From Deltaproteobacteria bacterium (GTDB taxonomy: Bacteria; Desulfobacterota; DSM-4660; Desulfatiglandales; HGW-15): a stretch of DNA of 36,135 bases. Location: positions 1 through 36,135 of the forward strand of contig JAFGGA010000055.1 in NCBI GenBank assembly GCA_016930835.1, written 5' to 3'. This document shows, in pieces, positions 25,872-33,298 of this stretch (position 1 is its first letter; every line of letters starts with the position of its first letter). The notes under the pieces are model-generated. The model was given only the letters and a program-made list of their open reading frames with translations, searched no databases and was not told where the DNA came from. The position numbers were made by a program, and so were the translations under genes.

Positions 25872-25890
25872 CCACGCCCTACGGGCGTGG
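25872..25890. other. GC-rich hairpin
   Basis: CCACGCCC / GGGCGTGG is a perfect 8-bp stem with the three-base loop TAC. There is no T-run after it. The arms are similar to the terminator stem at 32943. Confidence 0.4.
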
Positions 25891-28565: not shown

Positions 28566-29168
28566 ATGAAAAAATTCATCATGTTCTCGTGTATGGTGTT
28601 TTCTTTCTTCAACATCCATCCCGCGTTATCCCAGGAGGTGCGTTACCGGACCTTCACCCAGGAAGAGATCCAGAGCATGAAAGATACCAAGGCTGTGATC
28701 AAGACCGTGTATGGGAATATCACCCTGGCGTTTTTTCCGGATCTGGCGCCCAACCATGTGGATAACTTTATCTCCCTGGCGGAGAAGGGATATTATAACG
28801 GGACGATTTTTCATCGGGTCATCCCCGGATTTATGATCCAGGGGGGTGACCCCAATTCAAAGAGCGAAGATCGAGCCATGCATGGAACCGGCGGTCCGGG
28901 TTATACCTTAAAGGCTGAATTTAACAGCAAATCCCATAAGAAGGGTATCCTCTCCATGGCACGAACTTCTGATCCGGATAGCGCCGGGTCACAATTTTTC
29001 ATCTGTGTAGCGGATGCCCCCCATCTTAATGGACAGTATACGGTCTTTGGAGAGGTTTTATCCGGGATGGATGTGGTGGATAGGATCGCCCTGGAACGGC
29101 GGGATGGAATGGATAACCCTCATAAACGGATTGAAATTGCGGTTGAGATACTCCGTCCAAAAAGATAG
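28566..29168 (+). CDS. Secreted cyclophilin-type peptidyl-prolyl isomerase
   Basis: A 200-residue cyclophilin with an N-terminal signal peptide (about 1-22, cut near ALSQ), so it probably folds proteins in the periplasm. Active-site blocks: FHRVIPGFMIQGGD (catalytic Arg), GILSMART and SAGSQFFI, and LNGQYTVFGEV, where His replaces the Trp of the cyclosporin-binding eukaryotic types, by reading HLNG. The ATG follows AAGGAG; it lies 11 bases after the CoA ligase with no functional link apparent. Confidence 0.93.
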   Translation: MKKFIMFSCMVFSFFNIHPALSQEVRYRTFTQEEIQSMKDTKAVIKTVYGNITLAFFPDLAPNHVDNFISLAEKGYYNGTIFHRVIPGFMIQGGDPNSKSEDRAMHGTGGPGYTLKAEFNSKSHKKGILSMARTSDPDSAGSQFFICVADAPHLNGQYTVFGEVLSGMDVVDRIALERRDGMDNPHKRIEIAVEILRPKR

Positions 29169-32528: not shown

Positions 32529-32720
32529 CGGCACCGGAATCCAGTATTTTCAAGTAGTTCCCCGCACAAAACTTCAAAGAAACCTTAGGTCGTCGGTCCT
32601 GTGCTAAGTACCTTTTACGCCATTCCCCGGCTTGACCGGGGAATCCAGTATTCCCAATGTTTTTTGGACCCCGGACGCAGTTTATCCCGCGCTTGATGCA
32701 AAGCCGGGGTGACCACTTTG
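32529..32720. repeat. Cluster of palindromic intergenic repeats
   Basis: Within the 513-base gap between the FMN-protein signal ORF and the PxxKW promoter are a perfect hairpin ATTCCCCGG / CCGGGGAAT (32622-32644), CCGGAATCCAGTATT words in direct repeat (32533, 32638), and GACCCCGG ... CCGGGGTGACC. No gene is seen. Confidence 0.5.
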
Positions 32721-32883
32721 TTTCGCTCTCGTTCAATCCATACTTTTTTCGCCCGGCGGCGCCGGATTCCGGGTCAAGCCCGGACTGATGGAGAGGCAGT
32801 TATGCAGAGGGCTCATTTCTTTTATGCTCGATTCGGGGATGTCCAAAAATGTGCGGAAAAAATATCATTGGTATTATTTTTGC

Positions 32884-32912
32884 TTGACAAGCCTTGATTT
32901 TTTAGGCATAAA
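32884..32912 (+). promoter_or_regulatory. Strong sigma-70-like promoter
   Basis: A consensus -35 box TTGACA, a 17-base spacer and CATAAA (four of six) precede the PxxKW gene. Transcription would start near 32919, leaving a leader of about 100 bases with the hairpins of the next entry. Confidence 0.65.
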
Positions 32913-32929
32913 AATCGATTAATTTTTTG

Positions 32930-32990
32930 AGAGGCTAATTATCCACGCCTCTTTCCTCATGAGAGAACCATTGAGGGGCGTGGTTTTTTT
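32930..32990 (+). promoter_or_regulatory. Attenuator-like leader: two exclusive hairpins, second with T-run
   Basis: AGAGGC (32930-32935) pairs with GCCTCT (32947-32952). The same GCC is part of the terminator stem CCACGCC (32943-32949) / GGCGTGG (32977-32983), followed by seven T (32984-32990). The hairpins cannot coexist. Because promoter and leader precede a gene with no gene upstream on this strand, conditional termination is likelier than a simple end of transcription. Confidence 0.55.
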
Positions 32991-33019
32991 ATGAAAAAAC
33001 AAGAAAGGATGTGATAATC

Positions 33020-33298
33020 ATGGTTTGCGTAACAGTAAAACCAGGCGTAGAGTGCTTTTTTATGAAAAAAAGCGGGTGTCAGTACAATGGCGGTAGCTGT
33101 CACCAGATTGTTGAACAATGCGAAGGTTGCCAGAGAGCCAAGGAATTTCCGACCGGCAAATACTGCATCAACTTCCCTGACCCGGCCAGCAAATGGCGAG
33201 TGGGGATCTGCAATATGGCCACTCATGTGAAGGCCACCACCGAAAAGAAGGTTGAGAAAATCAACCCGTTGAAGGCTTCAAAGCGCGGCAGTCATTAA
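33020..33298 (+). CDS. PxxKW-family cysteine-rich protein
   Basis: A 92-residue protein with eight cysteines (3, 12, 20, 27, 34, 37, 49, 64) in a pattern including CEGC (34-37), GKYC (46-49), the PASKW motif (55-59) and GICNMATH (62-69). It matches the PxxKW family of small cysteine-rich proteins common in Desulfobacterota, whose role is unknown. The spacing resembles the small iron-sulfur subunits of glycyl-radical enzymes, but no glycyl-radical enzyme is here. The C-terminal tail is basic. ATG at 33020 is chosen over GTG at 33011, since AAAGGA is ten bases upstream. It sits behind a strong promoter and an attenuator-like leader. Confidence 0.85.
   Translation: MVCVTVKPGVECFFMKKSGCQYNGGSCHQIVEQCEGCQRAKEFPTGKYCINFPDPASKWRVGICNMATHVKATTEKKVEKINPLKASKRGSH

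Follow-up and report, generated by a model that had tools for sequence, protein, structure and literature searches.

A phylum-core PxxKW gene that is probably attenuated by recurrent, lineage-specific leader terminators

Known leader terminators and the PxxKW gene

A framework in which leader terminators are defined by their synteny with the downstream gene has been set out by Naville and Gautheret (2010; PMC2965389), who also described leader-terminator families that lack a conserved sensor, for example rimP-leader; the main text of that study contains neither 'Desulfo' nor 'Geobacter'. In rimP-leader and other 5' terminator families (PMC2965389), as at the PxxKW gene analysed here, the leader of one orthologous gene carries a terminator in many species, and rimP-leader likewise has no larger conserved element of the type found in riboswitches, T-boxes or ribosomal-protein leaders. 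However, rimP-leader does have a conserved GGGc..gCCC terminator motif, whereas the PxxKW leaders have position alone in common. The rpsL-leader, one of the 'multiform' ribosomal protein leaders (PMC2965389), is similar in that one gene is preceded by several unrelated leader terminators across clades, although its authors report potential antiterminators for each variant and the PxxKW leaders have none that is general. In mobile or BIME-type attenuators (PMC2965389) palindromic repeats become leader terminators, and hairpins similar to that of the PxxKW leader (CCACGCC) are dispersed in the source genome; unlike such attenuators, the leader copy has only its stem in common with the repeats and carries a T tract of its own. 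Riboswitch, T-box and leader-peptide attenuators also have a leader terminator before the gene, but the PxxKW leader has no Rfam match, leader peptide or conserved aptamer.

The window, i.e. the whole stretch of DNA analysed, is 36,135 nucleotides long and encodes a protein of 92 amino acids that a preliminary description had assigned to the PxxKW cysteine-rich family. This assignment was confirmed by scores above the cut-offs for both NF038144 (119.8 bits versus 40) and PF20657 (Pfam DUF6811; 132.7 bits versus 35.8). The protein has eight invariant cysteines and a conserved NP[LI]KASKR tail (alignment A3). The gene is present in one copy in the source genome and is single-copy in nearly all relatives; it was found in 16/17 genomes of the family, 61/85 of the order and 272 of the 395 sampled genomes of the phylum. 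A PDB sequence search with PxxKW returned no relative, the AlphaFold model has a pLDDT of 45 and was set aside, and a literature search found no paper naming PxxKW or DUF6811 and nothing on its role. The gene neighbourhood is variable with no conserved operon. A gene recognised by eye as encoding a TlyA-like RNA methyltransferase often lies convergent to PxxKW (L065, L069, L071, L074, L075 and L078); elsewhere its neighbours differ, and it therefore behaves as a stand-alone gene.

Promoter, leader and terminator in the window

The preliminary description placed a near-consensus promoter and a leader of about 100 bases ahead of PxxKW; both are present there (Table 1), with ~100 nt between promoter and gene. 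Conservation of this promoter extends to PxxKW genes in general: TTGACA-17-GGCATAAA recurs upstream of many orthologues, and a promoter score of ≥16 was reached in 126/174 upstream regions of PxxKW genes phylum-wide, compared with 3.3 expected in shuffles. Promoters were chosen by consensus, a score of ≥15 being expected by chance in ~7% of regions (12.5/174). The extended Shine-Dalgarno is also widespread, with at least 10/14 matches to AAAGGAGGTGATCC in 93/174 orthologues versus 0.3% of shuffles. Its pairing partner would be the anti-Shine-Dalgarno AAAGGAGGTGAT at the 3' end of 16S rRNA; the 16S rRNA gene was looked for in assembly GCA_016930835.1 and was not found. A near-consensus promoter combined with an extended Shine-Dalgarno would be expected of a gene made for high-level expression. 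The intergenic DNA just 5' of the promoter (window 32530-32780) contains repeats that carry GGAATCCAGTATT and CCGGGTCAAGCCCGG-like sequences.

Table 1. Coordinates of features in and around the PxxKW leader of the window
Feature	Position	Strand	Details and basis
Sigma-70-type promoter	32884..32912	+	TTGACA 32884-32889, 17-nt spacer, CATAAA 32907-32912; basis: sequence
5' leader, presumed transcription start to terminator	32919..32942	+	AATTTTTT and ATCCACGCCTCT common to L007 leader (alignment A2)
Candidate competing hairpin P1	32929..32953	+	GAGAGGC 32929-32935 with GCCTCTT 32947-32953; -9.4 kcal/mol; folding and shuffles
Predicted intrinsic terminator	32943..32990	+	CCACGCCTCTT 32943-32953 / GAGGGGCGTGG 32973-32983, then T7 32984-32990; folding, stem kept in L007
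Alternative 15-pair hairpin (with G-U pairs)	32957..32994	+	32957-32971 / 32980-32994; folding of growing transcript
Extended Shine-Dalgarno	33004..33015	+	AAAGGATGTGAT; near-complement of 16S rRNA 3' end, 11/14 matches in window
PxxKW family cysteine-rich protein (DUF6811), 92 aa	33020..33298	+	NF038144, PF20657

A T-tailed terminator formed by CCACGCC and GGCGTGG had been proposed in this leader. The hairpin is present, although its stem is longer than claimed: the two motifs (32943-32949 and 32977-32983) are part of an 11-bp stem. Its predicted stability is -18.6 to -19.3 kcal/mol (z -3.4) and was equalled by 1/200 shuffles; folding of the whole leader gave a z of -1.8, which is not significant. 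A simple terminator scan missed the hairpin because its loop limit was 8. It had also been argued that, with no gene upstream on the same strand, the terminator is not simply ending a transcript, and this holds: the nearest upstream + strand gene ends at 29168, leaving 3.8 kb with no same-strand gene, and the genes between 29224 and 32264 are all on the - strand; a role in ending a transcript from upstream is thereby excluded. By its placement between the gene's own promoter and start codon it is a leader terminator of PxxKW. In the broad sense of Naville and Gautheret (PMC2965389), the window terminator is placed as a transcription attenuator would be, and leader terminators recur above chance at orthologous genes (see below).

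Were RNA polymerase to pass the terminator, and only then, the alternative 15-pair hairpin could form and would bury the T tract; the minimum-energy fold after read-through leaves much of the Shine-Dalgarno open. A leader-peptide attenuator was considered and rejected, as no short open reading frame with a ribosome-binding site precedes the terminator: there is no ATG from the presumed start to the terminator stem, and the sole ATG ahead of the terminator 3' arm is in the loop (32959-32961) and has no Shine-Dalgarno.

Leader terminators in relatives and across the phylum

The promoter and the extended Shine-Dalgarno recur in most close relatives, but their leaders are of 40-50 nt, with about 36-54 nt from the -10 to the ATG, which is too little to accommodate this element, and have no terminator; attenuation is therefore not needed for the function of the PxxKW gene. 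The only leader homologous to that of the window is in L007, from another genus and with a PxxKW protein 72% identical. It keeps AATTTTTT, ATCCACGCCTCT..GGGCGTGG and the terminator stem CCACGCCTC/GGGCGTGG; the loop differs and P1, the candidate competing stem, is absent. The comparison of orthologous leaders that had been suggested as a check is thus a weak one, with a single other genus, and it favours the terminator stem and not P1. The 3' half of the window leader is also 80% identical over 49 nt to a terminator-bearing leader at the PxxKW gene of a further genome (G071/L032), in which the terminator stem differs (TAGGCCGCCC/GGGGCGCCTA, then T8). With the terminator stem kept where P1 is missing in one of these leaders, and a different terminator stem in the other, it is the terminator that persists, not P1. 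A DNA search with the leader over the order matched only the window's own leader, the 3' half of this G071 leader and a short AT-rich, chance-like segment in G048.

The sources of upstream regions for the phylum survey were the order, named GTDB contigs and another 100 genomes of the phylum. Of 192 distinct upstream regions, 139 had a promoter scoring ≥15 whose distance to the start codon was 25-160 nt, giving 80 short leaders (25-65 nt) and 59 long leaders (66-160 nt). A T tail was required for a terminator to be counted, and expected numbers came from dinucleotide shuffles, which ignore relatedness. At a threshold of -8 kcal/mol, terminators were found in 39/59 long leaders versus 6.6 expected; the corresponding values were 31/59 versus 3.7 at -10 and 24/59 versus 1.9 at -12, and no terminator was found in the 80 short leaders. 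In a preceding analysis limited to the first 85 leaders, where hairpins were defined more strictly, 11 reached -10 versus 0.3 expected. Among control genes from the same DNA with equally good promoters and leader lengths, a small set, 2/25 had a terminator, and the long PxxKW leaders exceeded them at each threshold (Fisher p 7e-7 at -8, 8e-5 at -10 and 0.004 at -12), with the excess narrowing at the strictest (24/59 versus 2/25). The leader terminator of the earlier proposal is upheld, as a recurrent feature of PxxKW genes, by both the shuffles and the controls; the switch between competing stems that went with it is not, as described below.

Leader terminators occur in 14 GTDB families and at four loci of the named-contig set. 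They are uniform in some families (f13 8/8, f19 3/3, f21 4/5) and never found in others (f12 0/6, f58 0/4). Terminator sequences are unrelated between families, with T7-T8 tracts following the hairpin in many unrelated leaders. The species are related and the counts are not independent, yet a single origin is made less likely by the unrelated stems of 14 families.

In f13 (L228, L233, L244, L274, L276, L277, L279 and L280) a two-hairpin PxxKW leader, TTGGT/ACCAA followed by GAGTTACC/GGTAACTC with T7-T8, is kept in most species and offers a suitable basis for modelling an attenuator. The upstream hairpin CTCGGTTGGT/ACCAAAACGAG has CGAG in common with the terminator in most of them; some have lost these common bases, and a covariation check found the structure kept with almost no double changes. 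In f2 (L018, L025, L026, L035 and L064), PxxKW leaders of ~105-112 nt have a common AAGAACYA..TGGTTCTTATTTT hairpin with G-U and one-sided changes, and a weak terminator.

Attenuation and alternative readings

The reading to which we give somewhat better than even weight is that recurrent, lineage-specific leader terminators attenuate this phylum-core gene with no conserved RNA sensor, through either fixed damping or control in trans. Judged from the DNA alone, early termination probably serves to damp or regulate PxxKW expression. A strong promoter of constitutive type would transcribe a short leader that ends in a terminator just 5' of the ribosome-binding site of PxxKW; a substantial fraction of transcripts would be expected to stop at 32984-32990, giving a predicted RNA of ~70 nt, and the remainder would read through and be translated from the extended Shine-Dalgarno. 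The terminator, whatever its efficiency, would in this way hold back a strongly promoted gene, and across lineages it appears to have come and gone and been exchanged for other terminators, always at the site between promoter and Shine-Dalgarno.

The lack of a conserved aptamer or antiterminator points to fixed damping, or else to a trans-acting protein or a general antitermination factor. Loss or replacement of the terminator would be explained by fixed damping, and its return at the same place by a trans-acting regulator. A bolder version, which we put forward as speculative and unlikely, is that a conserved factor acting in trans, for which the cysteine-rich protein with its metal or Fe-S state might be a candidate, drives regulated premature termination at the sequence-unrelated terminators of the phylum's PxxKW genes; if so, terminators of unrelated sequence between promoter and Shine-Dalgarno would be its targets. 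The combination of recurrent terminator, near-consensus promoter and extended Shine-Dalgarno suggests that the level of PxxKW is set with care, and read-through under different redox, metal or sulfur conditions would offer a handle on any signal and then on PxxKW function. A terminator whose position is kept and whose sequence is not is also a case that is missed by searches for conserved RNA structures.

The hairpin could instead be an element for stability or insulation of the mRNA 5'-UTR near the ribosome-binding site, with termination incidental or weak. Strong hairpins with no T tract in L048, L118, L119 and L030 are consistent with such a role, as is the openness of the Shine-Dalgarno in the read-through fold; we nevertheless hold it to be unlikely, given that the enrichment was counted with a T tail required and that many unrelated leaders have T7-T8 tracts behind the hairpin.

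The preliminary description had favoured a two-state switch in which an AGAGGC/GCCTCT antiterminator competes with CCACGCC/GGCGTGG, the outcome being decided by a ligand, tRNA, protein or Fe-S status. As it had stated, the two stems share bases: with AGAGGC at 32930-32935 and GCCTCT at 32947-32952, GCC 32947-32949 is common to P1 and the terminator 5' arm. When folded as a growing transcript, P1 formed first, the terminator took over from ~32986 once its 3' arm was out, and P1 later coexisted with the 15-bp hairpin; the pairing gain with the terminator arm in the window leader had a p of 0.035. However, 7-bp P1-like pairing arose in about 2.5-6% of shuffles in which the 5' leader was shuffled and the terminator fixed, a marginal significance (~0.03-0.06) for a feature picked after inspection, and L007 has the same terminator stem with no P1. 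The antiterminator test was applied first to 10 leaders and then to the 33 that had a terminator preceded by sufficient sequence. Over the 33, upstream pairing with the terminator 5' arm did not exceed shuffles (Fisher p 0.97); arm pairing brought a weak excess in energetic gain (p 0.027), and overall upstream structure showed a stronger, though still weak, one (Fisher p 0.002, fold energy), partly from the related f13 leaders. In f13 the upstream hairpin overlaps or encloses the terminator arm, with 87.5% of P1 cells paired over eight species, but there is one double change only and little excess over shuffles. In L219 and L235 (family f78), AGTGGT..ACCACT is able to overlap or enclose the terminator 5' arm in both and is a possible antiterminator. 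Rfam 15 gave no riboswitch, T-box or leader match above gathering score in the window, and no match near a gathering score in 20 related leaders at E≤1. With no enrichment of arm pairing, no Rfam match and no leader peptide, a conserved RNA sensor is not supported; conservation of mutually exclusive stems was not seen in the one homologous leader available, and we judge switching by P1 to be distinctly unlikely.

A separate small RNA gene of ~70 nt, made up of the promoter and terminator, with PxxKW expressed through read-through, would fit the self-contained nature of this unit; in one relative (L242) a tRNA-Leu-like sequence, recognised by eye, lies at the same place between a promoter-like site and PxxKW. 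We consider this very unlikely, as no RNA sequence is conserved between lineages or matched in Rfam, and the same promoter serves PxxKW directly where the leader is short.

Least probable of all, and very improbable in itself, is that a dispersed palindromic repeat once inserted in the leader and left the hairpin there as a remnant without a role. Other CCACGCC..GGCGTGG hairpins, two in the source genome and one in G007, would fit this, but they have only the stem in common with the leader hairpin, the dispersed copies having different flanks and no T tract, and a second genus keeps the stem in the corresponding position; a mobile-repeat origin from them was accordingly rejected. These dispersed hairpins take the form CCACGCC-[5 nt]-GGCGTGG followed by TTATGTRGGACRGGCTATGCCAGTCC and occur at least twice in the source genome (window 25872-25890 and G000:C134:5976-5994, equivalent to L044:1501-1519); the related hairpin in G007 lies within a long palindrome (L148).
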